From: Phycisphaeraceae bacterium
GTDB taxonomy: Bacteria; Planctomycetota; Phycisphaerae; Phycisphaerales; UBA1924
DNA length: 38,291 nucleotides
Reading direction: 5' to 3'
Assembly: GCA_021604785.1 (NCBI GenBank)
Contig: BQJQ01000003.1
Span: 1 to 38,291 of the forward strand
The notes beneath the pieces are model-generated. The model was not told the origin of the DNA. It was given only the letters and a program-made list of their open reading frames with translations, and ran no database searches. A program made the position numbers and the translations under genes. Positions 22,927 to 31,915 of this stretch are shown here, in pieces. How positions within the stretch are numbered: position 1 is the first letter of the stretch; the number at the start of each line of letters is the position of its first letter.

Positions 22927-24477
22927 TTACCCGAGGAGGGCGAGGACCTGCTGCGGCTGCTGGTTCGCCAGGCTCAAGACGTTGGTCGAGGCCTGAACAA
23001 GGATCTGGTTCCGCGTCAGGTTGGCGGTCTCCTGAGCGAAGTCGGTATCACGGATGGCACTCTCGGCAGCCGCGGTGTTCTCGACGGTGACGCCGAGGGC
23101 ACGTGTGGTCGAGCCGATCACGTTCTTCTGGAACGAGCCGAGACGACCGCGGGTGGTCGAGACCTGCTTGATCGCCTGGTCGACGATCTTCTGGGCCGAG
23201 GTCAGGTCCGGGTCTGCACCGTCGACGGCGAACTCCTTGCCGCGACCGAGCTCGTCGAGGAACCCGAGGTCGGAGCGTCCGAGCTTGCGGGTCGCGACGT
23301 CCTGGAGACCGATGGCGACCTTGCCGCCGATGGTCACGTCCGAGGAGAGCTGGAAGTCGGCACCGCCACCGGTGATGGTGAACGCGGAGACCTGGCCCAG
23401 GGACTGGGAGGTGGCATCGGCGAGGGTGAACTGGACGTCGAGGAAGTCGGTGTTGATCGACAGTTCCTTGCCGTCGCCGGTCGCCTTGACGCCGTTGATC
23501 GTGCCGTCGATGTCCTGGCCATCGTCACGGACGGGGTTGGACGCGTTGGCGAAGGTGGAAGCGACCGACCCCTGAGCGTCGGCGAAGTTGGTGGCCTCGA
23601 GCTGGTAGACGCCCAAGGCACCCGCGGCACCGCCCGAACCGTCCGTCAGGTCGCCCTCGGTGACCTTGACCGAGACGTACTCGTCCGAGCCGAAGTTCGA
23701 GGAGGACAGCGTGATGCCGTAGCCCGAGACGGAGGCGACGACGCCGGTGTCTTCGGTGAAGGCGTTGACGGCGGCGGCGATCTGGGTCAGCGTCTGGGTC
23801 GAGGCGAAGCTGAGCTCACGCGAGCCGAGGGAGCCGACGATCTCGATCGAGAACGCGGACTCGCCCGAGCCGAGGTTGAGGTCGATCGTGCCCGCACCGC
23901 CCGAGGCGCTGGCCCCGAGGTTGAGGAACAGACCGGCCTTCTGAGCCGACTGGGTGACGGTCGCGTCGACCGACTGGCTTGCGCCGTCGAACTTGGCACC
24001 GTTGATCTGGAAGTCGGTGACCGTGGAGGCCACGCCGGTGACCTGGTAGTCGAAGGTGCCGTTGAGGAGCTTCTTGCCCTGGAACGACGTGGAGTTCGAC
24101 AGGCGGTCGATGGTCTGGAGGATCGAATCAACCTGGAGCTGGTTCGCTTCCTTCTCTTCATCCGAGAGGCCGGCGCCGTTGGCGGACTGCGTGAGCAGGC
24201 CCTGCAGCTCGGTCAGCATGGAGCTGATTTCCTGCAGGCCGCCTTCGGCAATGTTGATGACCTGGTCGGCACGCTCGGAGTTGCCGATTGCCGAGTTGAG
24301 CGCGGCGAGCTCGGAGCGGAGGTTCTCGCTGGCGATCAGGCCGGCGGGGTCGTCCTTACCACGGCTGATCTGCAGACCCGTGGAGAGGCGCTCGAGCGCG
24401 GTGCCGAGCTTGAAGTTGTTCTGACCCAGCACGCGCTGGGCCGTCAGGGAGGGGATGTTCGTGTTGATGCGACTCAT
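22927..24477 (-). CDS. Flagellin 1
   Basis: A 516-residue filament subunit. The N-terminal D0/D1 helices (about 1-140) begin MSRINTNIPSLTAQRVL and contain LERLSTGLQISRGKDDPAGL; the C-terminal helices (about 430-516) contain RGRLGSFQKNV and end in NVLSLANQQPQQVLALLG. The central region is beta-rich with a flagellin-IN-like segment (RELSFASTQTLTQIAAAVNAF) and a TGGGADFQLSSDV motif shared with flagellin 2. Export is by the flagellar type III system, so no signal peptide is expected. It has its own leader, putative sigma-28 promoter and terminator. AAGGA eight bases before the ATG lies in a hairpin loop (see the leader entry). CsrA control is inferred. Confidence 0.96.
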   Translation of the reverse strand: MSRINTNIPSLTAQRVLGQNNFKLGTALERLSTGLQISRGKDDPAGLIASENLRSELAALNSAIGNSERADQVINIAEGGLQEISSMLTELQGLLTQSANGAGLSDEEKEANQLQVDSILQTIDRLSNSTSFQGKKLLNGTFDYQVTGVASTVTDFQINGAKFDGASQSVDATVTQSAQKAGLFLNLGASASGGAGTIDLNLGSGESAFSIEIVGSLGSRELSFASTQTLTQIAAAVNAFTEDTGVVASVSGYGITLSSSNFGSDEYVSVKVTEGDLTDGSGGAAGALGVYQLEATNFADAQGSVASTFANASNPVRDDGQDIDGTINGVKATGDGKELSINTDFLDVQFTLADATSQSLGQVSAFTITGGGADFQLSSDVTIGGKVAIGLQDVATRKLGRSDLGFLDELGRGKEFAVDGADPDLTSAQKIVDQAIKQVSTTRGRLGSFQKNVIGSTTRALGVTVENTAAAESAIRDTDFAQETANLTRNQILVQASTNVLSLANQQPQQVLALLG

Positions 24478-24641
24478 GGGGGAGATCCTTCTCAAACAAC
24501 GTCGGAGTGCGGCCCAAAGCCCGCAACTTGGTGTGCGTCAACCCGGTCGCCCACGCTAACCGGGTCGCTCGCCCCTCCGGGGCTGGGTCGGCCCCCGAAT
24601 CCGTTCGGGAAAGACCGCATGCGTGCAGTCCTGGGCACGCC
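24478..24641 (-). promoter_or_regulatory. Flagellin 1 mRNA leader with four GGA-loop hairpins
   Basis: From a putative start near 24641 to the ATG there are exactly four GGA triplets on the transcribed strand, all in hairpin loops. They are: 24639-24622, CGTGC/GCACG with AGGA in an eight-base loop; 24609-24594, CCCGAA/TTCGGG with loop CGGA; 24583-24571, GCCCC/GGGGC with loop GGA; and 24493-24482, GAGA/TCTC with loop AGGA, which is also the Shine-Dalgarno. A further hairpin without GGA (ACCCGGT/ACCGGGT, arms 24565-24559 and 24547-24541) stands between the third and fourth. CsrA binds ANGGA or AGGA in short hairpin loops. This 164-bp stretch holds no gene. Stems were paired by eye; no folding energy was calculated. 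Confidence 0.55.
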
Positions 24642-24647
24642 GCAACT

Positions 24648-24675
24648 GAATCGGCGCCGCCGACTTGGGGGTTGA
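24648..24675 (-). promoter_or_regulatory. Putative sigma-28 promoter of flagellin 1
   Basis: Minus-strand GCCGATTC (24655-24648) resembles the sigma-28 -10 consensus GCCGATAA at six of eight positions, with TCAA (24675-24672) 16 bases upstream against the TAAA-N15 consensus. The predicted start near 24641 opens the GGA-hairpin leader. The spacing is one base off, so this is tentative. Confidence 0.4.
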
Positions 24676-24803: not shown

Positions 24804-26363
24804 TTACCCGAGCAGCTGGAGCACGGACTGGGCCTGCTGGTTTGCCAGCGAGAGCACCGAGGTGCCCGAGCTCTGAAGGATCTGAGCCCGTGTGAGCTGG
24901 CTGGTCTCCGCCGCGAAGTCGGCGTCGCGGATCAGGCTGCGGCTCGAGGTGAGGTTCTCGAACTGCGTTTGCAGGCTCCGCTGGGTGGTGCCGAGGACGT
25001 TGCGTTCGAACGCGCCCATTCGCCCGCGGAGGATGGAGACCTCGTCGATCGCGGTGTCCAGGATCGCCTGGGCGTCGGTGAAGTCGCCGCGGCGGACGGA
25101 CTCTTCGATCGAGTTGGTCTTGCCCTTTTCGAGGCTTGAGATGGTCTGCACGGACCCGTTGACGAGGGTGCCCCCGAGCAGCGAGGCGGCGACGGACTGG
25201 ATGCCGAAGCTGACCTGCTGCTGGGCGGTGATATCGGGCCCGATCTGGAAGTTGGACCCGCCGCCGGTGACATAGAAGGTATCCGTGCCCAGCGAGGGGT
25301 CGGTCGCGAAGGACTCGTCGATGAGCAACTCGAGCCCCAGCGATGGGGAGTTGATCGAGATCTCGAGCCCGCGCCCGGTCGAGAGCGAGCCGTTGATGAG
25401 GGCGGAGATGTCTCGCCCTTCGTCGCGGGTGGCGGTGACGAGGTTGGGGCCGGCGAAGGAGAAGGTGCCGTCGAGCGCGGGGAAGTCCGCGTTGGCGTTG
25501 AACTTGAAGGCGCTGAAGCCGTCGTCAGCCGGGTCGGTCGGCCCGTCTACGCGTTCGACGGAGACGAACTCGTCCGCGCCGTAGCTGGCCGAGCGGATGA
25601 CTAGGCCGACCGAGGAATCAGTCGGGTCGATCAGTGAGGCCTCGACGCCGGTGAGCGAGGTGAGCTGGTTGATGCCCGCGATCATCTGGCTGAAGGACTG
25701 ACCGGAGGCGAACGAGAGCTCCCGGACACCCTCGGACCCCTGGATCCGCAGCGTGAGCGCTGAGTTGATGACGCCGGCGGTGGAGATGTTCGCGTTGCCG
25801 TTGACGAACAGCGAGCCCTTCTGGGCCGAGTCCACGACGTCCACGTCCACCTGCAGCGAGCTCTGCCCGACGAAGCTGGCGTTGAAGACCTGGGCCTTCA
25901 CGATCGTCGAGCTTGTGACGCCCGAGAGGGTGAAGTCGAGCGAGCCATCGAGGAGCTTGAGCCCGCCGAAGGTGGCGGTGTTCGAGATCCGGGTGATGGA
26001 CTGGATCGCCGAGTCGATCTGCAGCTGGTTGGCGGCGCGTTCCTCGGGGGAGTTGCCGCCGGTGTTGGCCGCCTCGACCATGAGCGCCTTGACCGAGTTG
26101 AGCAGCTCATTGATCTCGGCGAGCGACGACTCGGTCGTGGCGATCATCGAGCTTGCCCGCTCGGTGTTCTGGATCGCCTGATCGATGCCGTTGAGATCGG
26201 TGGCGATCCGCTCGGAGATAATGAGCCCGGCGGGGTCGTCCTTGCCTCGGTTGATCCGGAGCCCGGTCGAGAGGCGCTCCAGGCGCAGCTCGAGCTCGGA
26301 GTTGTTCCGGTTCAGGTTGGTTTGGGCGATGACGCTGGGTACATTCGTATTGATGCGAGCCAT
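24804..26363 (-). CDS. Flagellin 2
   Basis: A 519-residue filament subunit with the same plan as flagellin 1. The N-terminal helices start MARINTNVPSVIAQTNL and include LERLSTGLRINRGKDDPAGL; the C-terminal helices include RGRMGAFERNVLGTTQRSL and end LSLANQQAQSVLQLLG. The middle part carries RELSFASGQSFSQMIAGINQ and TGGGSNFQIGPDI, matching equivalent motifs in flagellin 1, but the rest is clearly divergent, so the pair is an old duplication. The ATG is preceded by GGAGG, enclosed in a CsrA-type hairpin. It follows csrA by 87 bases; no promoter was seen in that gap, so it may be on the fliW-csrA transcript. A strong terminator follows it. Confidence 0.96.
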   Translation of the reverse strand: MARINTNVPSVIAQTNLNRNNSELELRLERLSTGLRINRGKDDPAGLIISERIATDLNGIDQAIQNTERASSMIATTESSLAEINELLNSVKALMVEAANTGGNSPEERAANQLQIDSAIQSITRISNTATFGGLKLLDGSLDFTLSGVTSSTIVKAQVFNASFVGQSSLQVDVDVVDSAQKGSLFVNGNANISTAGVINSALTLRIQGSEGVRELSFASGQSFSQMIAGINQLTSLTGVEASLIDPTDSSVGLVIRSASYGADEFVSVERVDGPTDPADDGFSAFKFNANADFPALDGTFSFAGPNLVTATRDEGRDISALINGSLSTGRGLEISINSPSLGLELLIDESFATDPSLGTDTFYVTGGGSNFQIGPDITAQQQVSFGIQSVAASLLGGTLVNGSVQTISSLEKGKTNSIEESVRRGDFTDAQAILDTAIDEVSILRGRMGAFERNVLGTTQRSLQTQFENLTSSRSLIRDADFAAETSQLTRAQILQSSGTSVLSLANQQAQSVLQLLG

Positions 26364-26364
26364 T

Positions 26365-26382
26365 GCAATCCTCCGTGATTGC
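26365..26382 (-). promoter_or_regulatory. CsrA-type hairpin over the flagellin 2 Shine-Dalgarno
   Basis: On the transcribed strand GCAATC, ACGGAG, GATTGC: a perfect 6-bp stem with a hexaloop whose first five bases fit ANGGA. The GGAGG Shine-Dalgarno begins in the loop and the stem ends two bases before the ATG. Bound CsrA would block initiation. This is the textbook geometry of a CsrA/RsmA site. Confidence 0.7.
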
Positions 26383-26450: not shown

Positions 26451-26840
26451 CTAGGCGGTTTCCTTGGCGGGGTGGGGCGAGGGCGGGGGAACCCGCGTGA
26501 CGCCCGGGGCCCCGGCGGGCTTGGGTTCTTGTCCGTTGGGCGCGGGCCCCTGCGATGGGGGCGCCTTGGACGCGAGCCCCGACACCTTGGGCGTCAGAGG
26601 GCGTCCGGTCTTGGCCGGCCCGGGTCTGATGTCGGCGGTCGAGATCGCGTCGTCGCCGAGGCGGGACGCCTCGGTGTTCTCGCGCTTGATCGCTTCGTAC
26701 ACCTCTTTTCGGTGTACGGCAATCCGGGTGGGCGCCGTGATGCCAAGGCGCACCTTGTCTCCCCGGATATCGACGACCGAAATCTCGATGTCGTCGCCGA
26801 TCATGATTGTCTCGTCGCGCTGCCGTGAGAGCACCAGCAT
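26451..26840 (-). CDS. csrA: Carbon storage regulator CsrA with long C-terminal tail
   Basis: RNA-binding translational regulator. Residues 1-55 are a normal Csr[21 protein letters not shown], then [21 protein letters not shown], with the RNA-contacting Leu4, Arg6 and Arg44 all present. The protein is 129 residues long, about twice the usual 55-75. The extra 65-70 residues are a Pro-, Ala-, Lys- and Ser-rich tail of low complexity. AAGGAG before the ATG contains a GGA, and another GGA lies about 13 bases upstream, which would allow autoregulation. fliW is the upstream neighbour (161-base gap) and flagellin 2 the downstream one. The tail frame has no stop or frameshift sign and keeps the local codon use. 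Confidence 0.95.
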
Positions 26841-27001: not shown

Positions 27002-27448
27002 TCAGGCCGACTGCACCTGCGGTGCGTCGCCGACCTTCACCAACGGGTGACGTGTCGTCCACCGTTTGTCCGCGAGCACCATCTGCTCGCCGCCCTTCGA
27101 GATCGTGTTGATGACCAGCGGGCCCTGGAGGTTCCCAGTGAGCTGCTCGTCAACCTTGTTCACGATCACGAAGACCTGCGCATCGTCGAGCTTTTCGAGC
27201 CCGAGATCCGTCATCTGCTCGGCGCGGATCGGCACGGAGAACTCCTCGACGAAGAACGTCGGGTCCGTGACGACGAACGCCAGGCTTGGGTCCTCCAGGC
27301 TCTGCAGCCAGAAGAACAAAGCGTCCTCCCCGGGCTCGAGCAAGCAGTACCGCGATTTGTCAGGGAACCCGAGGATTCCCTTGGTGAAGGTGATCACGCG
27401 GTCCTCCGCGATATCGATCACCCCAAAGCGTGTGGTCCGCACTTCCAT
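27002..27448 (-). CDS. fliW: Flagellar assembly factor FliW
   Basis: A 148-residue protein that binds CsrA and, alternatively, flagellin. In Bacillus and Campylobacter, free FliW releases CsrA from flagellin mRNA once flagellin has been exported. Visible signatures are [24 protein letters not shown], then [19 protein letters not shown], and VIVNKV near residue 95. The length is typical. ATG 27448 was chosen because a GGAG lies about eight bases before it; the frame extends upstream without conserved sequence. It is 134 bases downstream of flgL, with a GC-rich inverted repeat between them, and csrA follows. The pairing with csrA supports function. Confidence 0.95.
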
Positions 27449-27582: not shown

Positions 27583-29634
27583 TCAGCCGATGAAGTCCAA
27601 AAGCGAGAGCGAGTTCGCCTGCGATGTCACCAGCAGGCTCGCCTGCAGCTGCGTCTGCAGCAGGCTGAACTGCGTCGATGCCTCGGCGAAGTTCGTGTCC
27701 CTGAGCTGGCTTCTGGTCGTCGTATCCAACACCGTGCGGTCTTCCTCTCGCAGCGTTTCGTTGTCCACCTGCCTCGCGAACCCGCCCACCAGGGCACGCT
27801 GCTCGGTCAGGCGGTCCACCATTTCTTGCATCCGACCCGAAGCAAACTGGATGCCAACCGTGTCGTCCGTTCGCAAGGCCTTGGCAAGATCCATCAATGC
27901 GGTGAACAGGTTGTCCACACGGACCTTGGCGCGGTCCTCGCCGCGGAACTCGAGCCCGCCGGTGAGGGTGGTGCCGTCGAGCAGGCCCAGGTCGTCCGCC
28001 GCGGGCGAGTTGTTTTTGCGCTCCACGCTGATCGGGTCGGGCACTGCGGTCTGGGTGAAGAAGATGCCGTTGTCGTCGTCGGTGAGCGAAGCGGCGAAGT
28101 CGGTGGTGGGGCGGGCCGCCGCGGTGAGCTGGGCGTCCGCCTGGGTGTTGATCGCGTCGATGATCGCCCCGACGTCGGTCAGGTCGCTCGGCGAGAGGTC
28201 GATGTCGATCTCGAAGCCGTCGCCCAGGGTGATCGTGAAGTCGGTGTTGAGGGCGGGGTCCAGGGCACCGTCCTGATCGACCCGCCCCGAGACGACACTG
28301 ACGCCCCGCCCGTCGTTGAAGTCCGACAGGAGCGTGTCGCGTGAGAAGGACCGGACGCCCAAGGCCTCGGCGGTCCGCCCGGCGCCGTCGTCGATCTCGG
28401 CGATCGAGAGAGACCGCTCGTCGGTCCCCGAGAGCCGGGTGACGATGTTGATCCCGGTGCCGGTGCCGTTGATCTCGACCGAGACCTGCGTGCCGCCCTG
28501 CTCGAAGGCGCTGCGGAGGTCGGCGAGTGTGGTCGCGCCGGACAGGTCCACGGTGAAGGCTTGGCCATTGTTGTTCAGGCGCACCTGCCCGAGCGGGCCG
28601 GCAAGCCCGCGGAGCGAGGCGATCTCAGTCGTCCACGTCAGCTTCGCGTCGAGCTCGGCCCCGGCGGTGGTGGTCAGTTCGTCGAACGGTGCGGCGGGGT
28701 CGAACACGACGCCGAGGTCCGCGCCGGTGCTGCCGCCCTCGAGGTCGGCGAACTGCAGCGACCCGCCGGCGACGACGTCGATGCTCAGCGCCCCGCCCGA
28801 GATGGAGACGCCGCCCGTGTCCAGGACGGTGTCGCCCGAGGTGAACTCGTAGTCCTGGATCGCCGCGGTCAGCGAGTCCACCACGTCGCCCACGGTGCGG
28901 GCGCCCGAGAGATCGATGGAGAAGGTCGTGCCGCCGTTGAACGCGGCGTTGACGACGCCCAGCGAGACGCCCAGGTCGCGGGCGCCGTTGAGGTCCTGGA
29001 TCCGGGTGTCGAGCTGGAGGGCCGCGTCGAGATCGACGGCGCCCTCGATGCGGTTGGAGACGGCCCCGATCGCGTTGTTGGCGCCGATGGTGACGGGGAT
29101 GTTGAGCCCGACGCCCAGGTCGGTGGTGAGCCCGCCTCGCCCGCCCTCGAACCGGAACGCGCCCTGGAGGTCGGTGACCGGGGGCGAGCCGGGCTGGGTG
29201 CCGCCGAAGATGAACCCCGCGACCGACTTGCGGCTCGCAACGCGGTAAAGCGAATCGATCAGCGAATCCACGATAATCGCCTGCCCGTCGCGTTCCTCGG
29301 CCGACGCCGTGGACTGCACCTGCGCCAGCGAGATGCCGATGCCCTCGTTCACGAGGTCGAACGCGTCGCCCAGCGCCTGGTCGAGCGTGTCGAGCGAGCT
29401 TGCGGCGTACCCGAGGTTCTTGACGATCTGCTCGGAGCGTTCGATGCGGGCGTCGAGCGTCGAGACCGTCGCGGCCCGCACGATGTCGTCGGACGGGCGG
29501 CGCAGGTCGAGCCCACTCGAGAGCTTCTGGGAGACCTCGAACAGGTCGTTGTTCGTGCGCGCGAGGTGCGACAGGTTGATGCTCGAAAAGAGCAGCTGCG
29601 GTGCACGCCCGTACCCGGTTGGGAAGCTGGTCAT
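27583..29634 (-). CDS. flgL: Hook-filament junction protein FlgL (HAP3)
   Basis: Forms the second ring joining hook to filament. The N-terminal helices contain LARTNNDLFEVSQKLSSGLDLRRPSDD, the FlgL/flagellin-like D0-D1 signature, and the C-terminal end reads QLRDTNFAEASTQFSLLQTQLQASLLVTSQANSLSLLDFIG. At 683 residues it is more than twice the size of enterobacterial FlgL (about 317). The extra central region (about 150-600) has flagellin-IN-like beta segments (FSIDLSGARTVGDVVDSL, FTVDLSGATTLADLRSAF) in several divergent copies. The ATG is nine bases after the flgK stop, so the order is flgN-like, flgK, flgL on one transcript. FgnL-type chaperoning by the FlgN-like neighbour is expected. Confidence 0.9.
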   Translation of the reverse strand: MTSFPTGYGRAPQLLFSSINLSHLARTNNDLFEVSQKLSSGLDLRRPSDDIVRAATVSTLDARIERSEQIVKNLGYAASSLDTLDQALGDAFDLVNEGIGISLAQVQSTASAEERDGQAIIVDSLIDSLYRVASRKSVAGFIFGGTQPGSPPVTDLQGAFRFEGGRGGLTTDLGVGLNIPVTIGANNAIGAVSNRIEGAVDLDAALQLDTRIQDLNGARDLGVSLGVVNAAFNGGTTFSIDLSGARTVGDVVDSLTAAIQDYEFTSGDTVLDTGGVSISGGALSIDVVAGGSLQFADLEGGSTGADLGVVFDPAAPFDELTTTAGAELDAKLTWTTEIASLRGLAGPLGQVRLNNNGQAFTVDLSGATTLADLRSAFEQGGTQVSVEINGTGTGINIVTRLSGTDERSLSIAEIDDGAGRTAEALGVRSFSRDTLLSDFNDGRGVSVVSGRVDQDGALDPALNTDFTITLGDGFEIDIDLSPSDLTDVGAIIDAINTQADAQLTAAARPTTDFAASLTDDDNGIFFTQTAVPDPISVERKNNSPAADDLGLLDGTTLTGGLEFRGEDRAKVRVDNLFTALMDLAKALRTDDTVGIQFASGRMQEMVDRLTEQRALVGGFARQVDNETLREEDRTVLDTTTRSQLRDTNFAEASTQFSLLQTQLQASLLVTSQANSLSLLDFIG

Positions 29635-29643
29635 GGCAGGCCC

Positions 29644-31377
29644 TTAGAGGATGCCCAGGAGTGTCTGGTACATCTCGTCAGCGACGGTGATGAGCTGGGC
29701 GGCGCCCTGGAACTGACGCTGGAACGTGAGCAGGTTGATTGATTCTTCATCGATCGAGACGCCCGAGACCGCGGCGTTCTGCGCCTCGAGGCTCTCGCGC
29801 ACGATCTGGGCGGCCTCCGCGTCGGAGTTCGCGGTGCTCGCCGCGGTCGCGACGTTCTGCACCCGGTCGATCCAGAATTGGGCGGGCGTCCGGTTGCCCA
29901 GCGCCGCGAACGCCGTCTCTTGCAGGTGGGCGACCTCGATCGATGTCGCGTTCTCGACGAGCTGCCCGTCCACGATCCGCCCCGCCGCGAGCGCCTTGGG
30001 GTCGTTGATCAAATCCGGGCGCACGGCGATCGTCTTCGCGTCCGTGCCCACAAAGTACGCGTTCATCCCCATCACGCCCAACACGCCCGACGAATCGTCG
30101 GAGAAGCTGAACGCGAACCCGGGATCGGCGGTGACAGAGAGGCGGCCGTCGGGGCTGAAGTCGGCGTTGACGCCGTCGATCGCGTCGATCGCGGCGCGGA
30201 TGTCCTCGGGCGTCGTGTCGTCGGCGAACCCCTGCGCGCCGGTCGCGGTCAGCCCGTCGAGGTCCACGTCGACCCAGACCTGGTCGGTCGAACCGGTCGA
30301 GTCGTTGGCGATGTTGACGTAGAACCCGCCGTTCTCCGCGGCGTAGGGCAGGTCGCTGAACGTCTGGTTGTTCGGGTCGTTGTACGCGAGCGAGCGGTCG
30401 GGCAGCGGGATCTGCTGGTCCGTGTCCGAGACGGTGAACCCGCCGGCGTTCGTGCCCGTCGCGTGCAGCTTGTTGACCTCGAAGATGATCTGCGCGCTGA
30501 GCTGATCGAGGTCCGCGATCGCGACGTCGATGGTCCCGTCGCGGGCGGATATGAGCCCGCCGATCGTGCCCGAAGTCACGGGCAGGCGTTCCTGGTCCGA
30601 TTCGACGACGACGAAGGGCACCCGCTCGCCGTCGATCTCTTCGTAGATGAGGTCCAGCCCGCGTGAGTTGCCGGCGAGCACCACGGGGGCGGAGCCGACG
30701 AGGACGTCCAGGTTCCCCTGCCCGTCCTCGATCGTGGTCACGTCCATGAAGGTCGCGAGCTCGTCGATCAGGCGGTCCCGCTGGTCGCGGAGGGTGTTCG
30801 CCTCGCTCGGGCCGACCTCGGTGCGGGCGATGAGCTTGTTGATCGACGCGATGTCATCGAGCAGCTCGTCGGCCCGCACGACCGCGTTGGTCAGCTCGGC
30901 GCCGATCTGCGTCCGCAGCCCGTGCAGGTCCTGGCGCATGGTGCGGACGAAGTTCGCCAGCTCGGACCCCGCCTCGATCACCACGGATTGCGTGTCCTGC
31001 ACCGACGCGATCTCGGACCACGTGTTGAAGAACTCGTTGAGCTGGGTCGAGAGGTCGAAATCCGTCAGCTCGTTGAGCACGCCCTCGAGCTGGTTGAACA
31101 GCGCCACCCGCTTTGCCGCTCCGAATTCATCGGAGATGCCCGAACGCAGGCGCGCCCGCAGGGCCTCGTCGAGCTTCCGCTCGACGGACCCGACGCCGAC
31201 GCCCCGCCCGATGTGGAACGGGTCGGACCTGGGCCCGGGGATCGGCACCAGGTTCGCGACCTGGCGCGAGTACCCGGGCGTCGCCGCGTTGGCCATGTTG
31301 TTGCCCGCGACCTGGATCGCGATCTGGGCCGCGTTCAGCGCCGAGCGGGCGGTCTGGATGGTCCCGGTGAGGCTCAT
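29644..31377 (-). CDS. flgK: Hook-filament junction protein FlgK (HAP1)
   Basis: First ring of the hook-filament junction. The 577-residue protein opens MSLTGTIQTARSALNAAQIA and continues with VAGNNMANAATPGYSRQ, the FlgK N-terminal signature. The middle contains the ELTNAVVRADELLDDIASINKLI helices, and the C-terminus has SIDEESINLLTFQRQFQGAAQLITVADEMYQTLLGIL. The length is close to the family norm (550-650). The ATG is four bases after the stop of the FlgN-like gene. A flagellin-IN-like segment (DGLTATGAQGFADDTTPEDIRAAIDAI) lies near residue 400. Sec-independent; exported by the flagellar apparatus. Confidence 0.95.
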   Translation of the reverse strand: MSLTGTIQTARSALNAAQIAIQVAGNNMANAATPGYSRQVANLVPIPGPRSDPFHIGRGVGVGSVERKLDEALRARLRSGISDEFGAAKRVALFNQLEGVLNELTDFDLSTQLNEFFNTWSEIASVQDTQSVVIEAGSELANFVRTMRQDLHGLRTQIGAELTNAVVRADELLDDIASINKLIARTEVGPSEANTLRDQRDRLIDELATFMDVTTIEDGQGNLDVLVGSAPVVLAGNSRGLDLIYEEIDGERVPFVVVESDQERLPVTSGTIGGLISARDGTIDVAIADLDQLSAQIIFEVNKLHATGTNAGGFTVSDTDQQIPLPDRSLAYNDPNNQTFSDLPYAAENGGFYVNIANDSTGSTDQVWVDVDLDGLTATGAQGFADDTTPEDIRAAIDAIDGVNADFSPDGRLSVTADPGFAFSFSDDSSGVLGVMGMNAYFVGTDAKTIAVRPDLINDPKALAAGRIVDGQLVENATSIEVAHLQETAFAALGNRTPAQFWIDRVQNVATAASTANSDAEAAQIVRESLEAQNAAVSGVSIDEESINLLTFQRQFQGAAQLITVADEMYQTLLGIL

Positions 31378-31381
31378 CGGT

Positions 31382-31915
31382 TTAGCTCCGCACGTCCATG
31401 CCCGTCGCGATGGGTGTGCCGCCCGTCTCGACGCGCCCGGCGCGCGAGTAGGTCCCCGTGCCCGAGAGCTCGGCGGCGATCTGGTGGGCCAGCCCCTCCA
31501 TGTGCGAGCTGAGCGTCTGGCTCGCACGCTTGATCGCGCGGTGACGCTTGCGGATCGACTCGAGCAGCTCGCGGAGGCGTGCCGCCAGGTCCAGCACGCG
31601 GGCGCGCCGCGGAGGGTCCATCAGCTCGGCGACCTCCGCGACCGTCGGCTGCCCCTTGATGGGCTGCCCGCCGGCGGGGGGTTCGAGCTTGAGCAGCAGC
31701 GCCCGCTGGTCCTCGAGCCGGGCGATCCGCTGGAGCGTGTCGCCGGTCGAGGTGACCGCGGCTTTCAGGCGCCCGGCGTCGAGCGACGCGATCGCGGCGC
31801 GGTGCTCGGTCGCCAGCCCGTCGAGCGATTCGTGCTCGCGGACGAGCTCGTTGAGGATCGCTTCGAGTCCCTCGAACGTGTCTTCGGTGAATCGTGTTCC
31901 GGTGGTCCGAACCAT
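31382..31915 (-). CDS. FlgN-like export chaperone
   Basis: A 177-residue, almost wholly alpha-helical protein. Sequence identity to known FlgN is weak, but the family pattern is present: an N-terminal helix with ILNELVREHESLDGLATEHRAAIASLDAGRL, a Leu-rich second helix (RIARLEDQRALLLKL) and a C-terminal helical stretch (LAARLRELLESIRKRHRAI). Its position directly before flgK and flgL, the clients of FlgN, is the strongest argument. FlgN keeps FlgK and FlgL unfolded and brings them to the export gate. The ATG at 31915 has a short frame with 19 bases from the flgJ stop. The C-terminal 30 residues look disordered. Confidence 0.7.
   Translation of the reverse strand: MVRTTGTRFTEDTFEGLEAILNELVREHESLDGLATEHRAAIASLDAGRLKAAVTSTGDTLQRIARLEDQRALLLKLEPPAGGQPIKGQPTVAEVAELMDPPRRARVLDLAARLRELLESIRKRHRAIKRASQTLSSHMEGLAHQIAAELSGTGTYSRAGRVETGGTPIATGMDVRS

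Follow-up and report, generated by a model that had tools for sequence, protein, structure and literature searches.

What a planctomycete flagellin mRNA contributes to its own control is the question raised by the leader of the flagellin gene fla1 in the window, a 38,291-nucleotide stretch of DNA from a Phycisphaeraceae bacterium. The sequence-only reading of this stretch had noticed GGA triplets placed in the loops of hairpins in this leader, and proposed that the mRNA is both repressed by the RNA-binding protein CsrA and acts as a sponge for it. Our comparisons suggest, with a probability of roughly 0.9, that a CsrA-FliW-flagellin homeostasis switch acts on the fla1 leader as its RNA target.

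The flagellin locus and the hairpins of the fla1 leader

The genes of the locus (Table 1) lie on the minus strand in the order flgK-flgL-fliW-csrA-fla2-fla1, followed by a gene for a XerC/D-type recombinase, and the flgK-flgL-fliW-csrA-flagellin order is much as in Bacillus subtilis. Between fla2 and fla1 the sequence has an inverted repeat, rich in GC and trailed by T residues, with another 3' of fla1; given such elements on both of its sides, fla1 looks like a separate transcription unit. The CsrA domain occupies residues 1-52 of the csrA product, with a long C-terminal extension beyond it, and its best structure match is the B. subtilis-type CsrA (1t3o), with a further match to a chain of 5dmb. 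Alignment to B. subtilis CsrA over residues 1-69 shows that L4, R6 and R44, residues of RNA binding, are intact, as is N55, a FliW contact in B. subtilis; fliW itself lies directly upstream of csrA. CsrA was detected in all 61 genomes searched (the window's included) and FliW in 60 of them, usually beside flagellin genes. The sole relative without FliW and without a high-scoring CsrA (G023) contains flagellins, and could reflect an assembly gap. Four genomes of family f2 (G042, G050, G054 and G058) have CsrA and FliW with no match to the N-terminus of the window's flagellin, and either possess divergent flagellins or use the CsrA-FliW pair otherwise. A second, divergent CsrA paralogue of about 52 bits (L002, G000:C122:4594-4758), with the sequence MLVITRREGEEVVIG and retaining HRRE, is also encoded in the genome, and a second CsrA at about 47-57 bits is likewise present in most relatives.

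Table 1. Genes, promoter and leader hairpins of the flagellin locus (positions in the window)
Feature	Position	Strand	Description
flgK	29644..31527	-	hook-filament junction protein; TIGR02492, 297 bits
flgL	27583..29634	-	hook-filament junction protein; TIGR02550, 126.1 bits, slightly below the 127.2 cut-off
fliW	27002..27448	-	148 aa; PF02623, 118 bits; match to the FliW chain of 5dmb, a solved FliW-CsrA complex
csrA	26451..26840	-	129 aa; PF02599, 84 bits; TIGR00202, 86.5 bits (cut-off 70.1)
fla2 Shine-Dalgarno hairpin	26365..26382	-	GCAATC-ACGGAG-GATTGC; near-perfect ANGGAN hexaloop; an ANGGAN hexaloop is present in 70 of 78 fla2-like leaders of relatives
fla2	24804..26363	-	flagellin, 519 aa; Flagellin_N and Flagellin_C
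sigma-28-like promoter	24650..24675	-	TCAA-N16-GCCGAT; transcript start inferred near 24641
Hairpin 1	24621..24640	-	5'-terminal stem-loop GCGTGC(CCAGGACT)GCACGC; not ANGGAN
Hairpin 2	24594..24609	-	ANGGAN hexaloop ACGGAT (24604-24599) on CCCGA/TCGGG; predicted high-affinity upstream CsrA site
Hairpin 3	24571..24583	-	GCCCC(GGA)GGGGC; GGA triloop, not ANGGAN; identical in G001
Hairpin 4	24541..24565	-	ACCCGGT...ACCGGGT; without GGA; compensatory stem changes in G001
Hairpin 5	24508..24525	-	TGCGG...CCGCA; without GGA; arms pair elsewhere in the two-genome consensus
fla1 Shine-Dalgarno hairpin	24482..24493	-	GAG-AAGGAT-CTC; ANGGAN hexaloop; predicted ribosome-blocking CsrA site; identical in G001
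fla1	22927..24477	-	flagellin, 516 aa; Flagellin_N and Flagellin_C

GGA indeed occurs exactly four times in the fla1 leader (24641-24478, minus strand, about 164 nt), every time in a local hairpin loop and the last time over the Shine-Dalgarno sequence, as had been claimed. Two of these loops, originally described as CCCGAA(CGGA)TTCGGG in hairpin 2 and GAGA(AGGA)TCTC over the Shine-Dalgarno, conform to the ANGGAN hexaloop, a motif described for high-affinity RsmE/CsrA sites (PMC7652899). The high GC content of the leader lends itself to the alternative that the hairpins simply reflect the ease with which GC-rich DNA folds, GGA triplets falling into them by chance, a caveat already attached to the sequence-only reading. 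However, among 16,465 dinucleotide shuffles that had at least four GGA none placed all of them in loops, and only 21 of 20,000 dinucleotide-preserving shuffles put at least four GGA in loops at all, the chance of a GGA falling in such a loop being about 10% in the same set. Likewise, under local folding (folding window 60, span 40) the GGAs of the leader are on average 65% unpaired, a value attained by 9 of 951 shuffles.

The single congener compared, the genus-mate genome G001 ('Phycisphaerae bacterium isolate 3_bin.101', JAUHXM010000051.1), shows 78% identity to the window over the leader and promoter and keeps all four GGA hairpins, with no GGA outside them in either leader. The loop of hairpin 1 reads CCAGGACT in the DNA of the window and TCGGAACT in G001, such that the change from CCAGGACU to UCGGAACU destroys the old GGA and creates a new one, shifted by one base, in the same loop. 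Hairpin 2 shows a C-G pair replaced by U-A, and the stem of hairpin 4 has three pairs altered on both sides in a compensatory manner. The consensus fold of the two genomes holds all four GGA hairpins simultaneously, together with hairpin 4. The pattern is in keeping with selection that holds GGA in the loop, with the proviso that two related sequences make for weak statistics. No counterpart of hairpin 3 occupied the corresponding position in the closest other relatives inspected, and this hairpin appears to be specific to the genus.

The global minimum-free-energy fold of the whole leader (-79.1 kcal/mol, versus -48.8 kcal/mol for the structure with hairpins only) buries the Shine-Dalgarno GGA through long-range pairing to an upstream stretch, and the Shine-Dalgarno hairpin of fla1 is by itself weak (-1.6 kcal/mol). 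That fold would be expected if the structure served mainly to sequester the Shine-Dalgarno itself, as a thermosensor-like or folding control independent of CsrA, with GGTCTTTC pairing with the Shine-Dalgarno region. Yet G001 has not conserved the partner GGTCTTTC, the two-genome consensus shows the local Shine-Dalgarno hairpin in place of this pairing, and the specificity for ANGGAN would be left unexplained. The long-range pairing was rejected on account of its absence from both the fold of G001 and the two-genome consensus fold, and we regard CsrA-independent sequestration of this kind as improbable.

Conserved ANGGAN hexaloops in flagellin leaders of the Phycisphaerae

A wider comparison used 292 flagellin leaders from the family and order, of which 249 were independent after reduction and removal of the window's genus (171 fla1-like and 78 fla2-like), an ANGGAN hexaloop being counted when closed by at least 4 base pairs. 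Such hexaloops are present in 141 of these 249 Phycisphaerae leaders, where about 4 are expected: 71 of the 171 fla1-like leaders contain one (3.0 +/- 1.5 in shuffled sequences), as do 70 of the 78 fla2-like leaders (0.96 +/- 0.87 when shuffled), in the latter case mostly at the Shine-Dalgarno. By the same criterion, about 100 of the 171 fla1-like leaders show no ANGGAN hexaloop. Of the full 292 flagellin leaders, only those of the window and G001 have at least three GGAs with all of them in loops. The hexaloops favor two places, namely the Shine-Dalgarno (5-15 nt from the ATG), which ANGGAN overlaps in most relatives, and a region 110-140 nt upstream of the start codon. The two ANGGAN sites of the window recur at matching places across Phycisphaerae flagellin leaders.

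The signal is specific to the motif, so that the GGA-in-loop pattern of the sequence-only reading narrows to ANGGAN alone. When loops that fit NnNNNn and precede the Shine-Dalgarno are sorted into classes, AnGGAn is by far the commonest (43 of 264, the next class having 9 of 394), and in a first set of 94 leaders altered motifs were found in 0-4 leaders each versus 45 for ANGGAN. In a motif-first test, the flanks of ANGGAN occurrences 95-160 nt upstream pair above the level predicted by independence at every position tested (e.g. 0.68 versus 0.42 predicted by independent sides at pair 3), with many pair types represented, whereas the flanks of 301 BNGGAN controls show no such excess of pairing. 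The nearly invariant Shine-Dalgarno stem of the fla2-like leaders says, for that reason, little by covariation. Hexaloops closed by at least 5 pairs reach a density of 2.72 per kb in the leaders against 0.078 per kb in the DNA neighboring them, a 35-fold difference; the 38 kb window, counting both strands, has only three such hexaloops, of which the fla1 and fla2 leaders account for two. One hexaloop turned up in 72 flagellin leaders from gamma- and beta-proteobacteria, although their lower GC content makes this a loose control.

The leaders without any site might still be cited in favor of a chance origin. Nevertheless, dinucleotide-matched shuffles fail to reproduce the GGA placement both in the window and across the family, and the control hexamers, like BNGGAN, remain flat. 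Taken together, the shuffles, the family-wide hexaloop counts, the motif-first pairing and the density relative to neighboring DNA refute the chance explanation, which retains a negligible probability.

As a separate observation, leaders of another flagellin paralogue (L007, L048, L050, L056 and L066) share the sequence GTTATCGGARC, located about 90 nt before the flagellin start, and have CGATA some 35-40 nt beyond it; this conserved arrangement resembles an inverted repeat in most of these leaders.

These results bear differently on the parts of the original proposal of CsrA control. A CsrA-type GGA hairpin lies over the Shine-Dalgarno of both fla1 (GAG-AAGGAU-CUC) and fla2 (GCAAUC-ACGGAG-GAUUGC), and the second, upstream GGA hairpin of fla1 is hairpin 2, with an ACGGAU hexaloop whose position is conserved and whose stem covaries in relatives. 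The case for CsrA control is strong at hairpin 2 and the Shine-Dalgarno hairpin, where it draws on the exact ANGGAN hexaloops, their conserved places and the adjacent csrA and fliW genes, and at the upstream site also on the covarying stems. Hairpins 1 and 3 are only possible CsrA sites, because they lack an A two bases before the GGA.

The 5' end, the long spacer and the additional hairpins

The putative sigma-28 start of fla1 is corroborated by the recurrence of its promoter in relatives. The pattern TNAA-N16-NCCGAT has a single match in the window (0.56 expected by chance), and lies 120-215 nt upstream in 56 fla1-like leaders of a set comprising the 171 relatives and the window's genus, against 0 of 171 in shuffled sequences. 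It usually precedes the stem of the upstream hexaloop by 30-47 nt in relatives. Across the family, flagellin promoters follow one uniform version of the sigma-28 promoter, TNAA-N16-NCCGAT.

In relatives, the initial 32 nt of the predicted transcript generally fold into a stable stem-loop (mean z -1.8, versus -0.3 for internal stretches). GGA occurs in 10 of the 58 5'-terminal hairpins of relatives against 5.5 +/- 2.3 when shuffled, so that selection for GGA in them is not significant. Since hairpin 1 sits where relatives have such a stem-loop, mostly without GGA, it is best understood as the 5'-terminal stem-loop common to the family, with a GGA offered in addition in the window's genus. It is fairly probable that hairpin 1, and perhaps others, stabilizes a highly expressed flagellin mRNA at its 5' end, given how well this segment folds right after the predicted transcript start in relatives, even though the retention of a shifted GGA in the hairpin-1 loop of G001 suggests more than stability. 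Such a role would complement control by CsrA.

The ANGGAN sites of hairpin 2 and the Shine-Dalgarno are 113 nt apart in the window, and the spacer averages about 104 nt in relatives. The sites of a single CsrA dimer have been described as lying 18-21 nt apart (PMC4894983), a far shorter distance. The spacer is more stable than its shuffles (mean z -1.4, p 4e-11). The idea that folding brings the sites together found no support, the path through the folded spacer being 12.0 steps as compared to 10.7 in shuffled sequences (p 0.2). With the spacing long and the path not demonstrably shortened, a single dimer bridging both sites is not established; binding of two CsrA dimers, or a loading function for hairpin 2, is just as possible.

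A more extensive version of the proposal would have all four hairpins binding CsrA, with one mRNA loading two dimers and serving as a CsrA sponge. The spacings between GGAs of hairpins 1 and 2 (29 nt) and of hairpins 2 and 3 (24 nt) are close to the 18-21 nt of a dimer, G001 keeps the entire set of four, including the shifted GGA of hairpin 1, with no other GGA in either leader, and the flaA mRNA titrates CsrA in Campylobacter (PMC4894983). On the other hand, hairpins 1 and 3 lack the ANGGAN motif, the leaders of relatives mostly have 0-2 GGA loops each, the 5'-terminal hairpin is common without GGA, and the two members of the genus are not independent of each other. We thus view binding at all four sites, together with the sponge function, as doubtful. 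For the sponge in particular, the fla1 mRNA may be likened to Campylobacter flaA by analogy only. A scenario in which the leader grew in the window's genus from the two CsrA sites of the family to four, the mRNA loading two dimers and becoming both target and sponge, is a shade less likely still.

The proposed CsrA-FliW switch and its known counterparts

From the hairpins, their conservation, covariation and enrichment, and the gene neighborhood of the putative switch, we infer CsrA binding, repression and FliW feedback at fla1. CsrA, encoded just upstream, would bind the ANGGAN hexaloops of hairpin 2 and the Shine-Dalgarno, and in its bound form would block ribosome access to fla1. Upon export of flagellin, FliW would become unoccupied and withdraw CsrA; accumulating flagellin would occupy FliW, and CsrA would repress again. 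B. subtilis hag and Campylobacter flaA follow this scheme (PMC7652899, PMC4894983). A hexaloop of this type, placed over its own Shine-Dalgarno, is likely to control fla2 as well. Hairpin 1 would serve chiefly as a 5'-terminal stem-loop, with hairpin 3 as an addition peculiar to the genus, and both may provide weak additional CsrA contacts. FlgV, formerly annotated as the RNA-binding protein Hfq, was dropped as an alternative RNA binder, since it has been reported not to bind RNA (PMC11607428).

The closest counterpart is the flaA leader of Campylobacter jejuni, for which a two-hairpin CsrA logic has been shown by experiment (PMC4894983). As in that system, there are two GGA hexaloop hairpins, the second of which lies over the ribosome-binding site, with compensatory changes, and the FliW antagonist is present, with a CsrB-type sRNA not being needed (PMC4894983). 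In contrast, the flaA leader is 45 nt long with sites 21 nt apart (PMC4894983), whereas that of fla1 combines its greater length and distant ANGGAN sites with a structured spacer, the window's genus has two more GGA loops, and a second flagellin, fla2, carries its own Shine-Dalgarno hexaloop. The hag leader of Bacillus subtilis is likewise comparable in having two CsrA sites, one of them over the Shine-Dalgarno (PMC7652899), and in the location of fliW-csrA directly upstream of flagellin; it differs in that our locus has two tandem flagellin genes, a longer leader, extra GGA loops and a long C-terminal extension on CsrA. An RNA with several GGA-bearing hairpin loops also recalls sponge RNAs of the CsrB/RsmZ type. 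However, the fla1 leader belongs to a coding mRNA, has only four GGA loops, two of them ANGGAN, and is not a non-coding RNA composed mostly of repeated ANGGAN hairpins; a search of the window against Rfam yielded no family match, CsrB, CsrC and RsmX/Y/Z included. On the whole, judged by its sequence features, the fla1 leader is almost certainly a CsrA-FliW-flagellin control leader with an unusually long, structured spacing between two conserved sites.

On the basis of gene distribution only, FliW was earlier proposed to antagonize CsrA in Planctomycetes (PMC4682653), and our search of the open-access literature turned up no publication that describes CsrA sites in the flagellin leaders of this phylum. 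The present analysis supplies the RNA side of the switch in the Phycisphaerae, in the form of a sharply defined, conserved target with its position, stem covariation and promoter, traced through about 250 independent leaders. In the less likely scenario of a leader grown to four CsrA sites, the stably structured interval of about 105 nt that recurs between the two conserved sites would represent a new long-range two-site layout for CsrA repression. The Shine-Dalgarno hexaloop of fla2 and the extra, far-upstream hexaloop of fla1 suggest a division of labor between the paralogous flagellins. The switch is thereby made directly testable in a phylum in which post-transcriptional control has hardly been studied.
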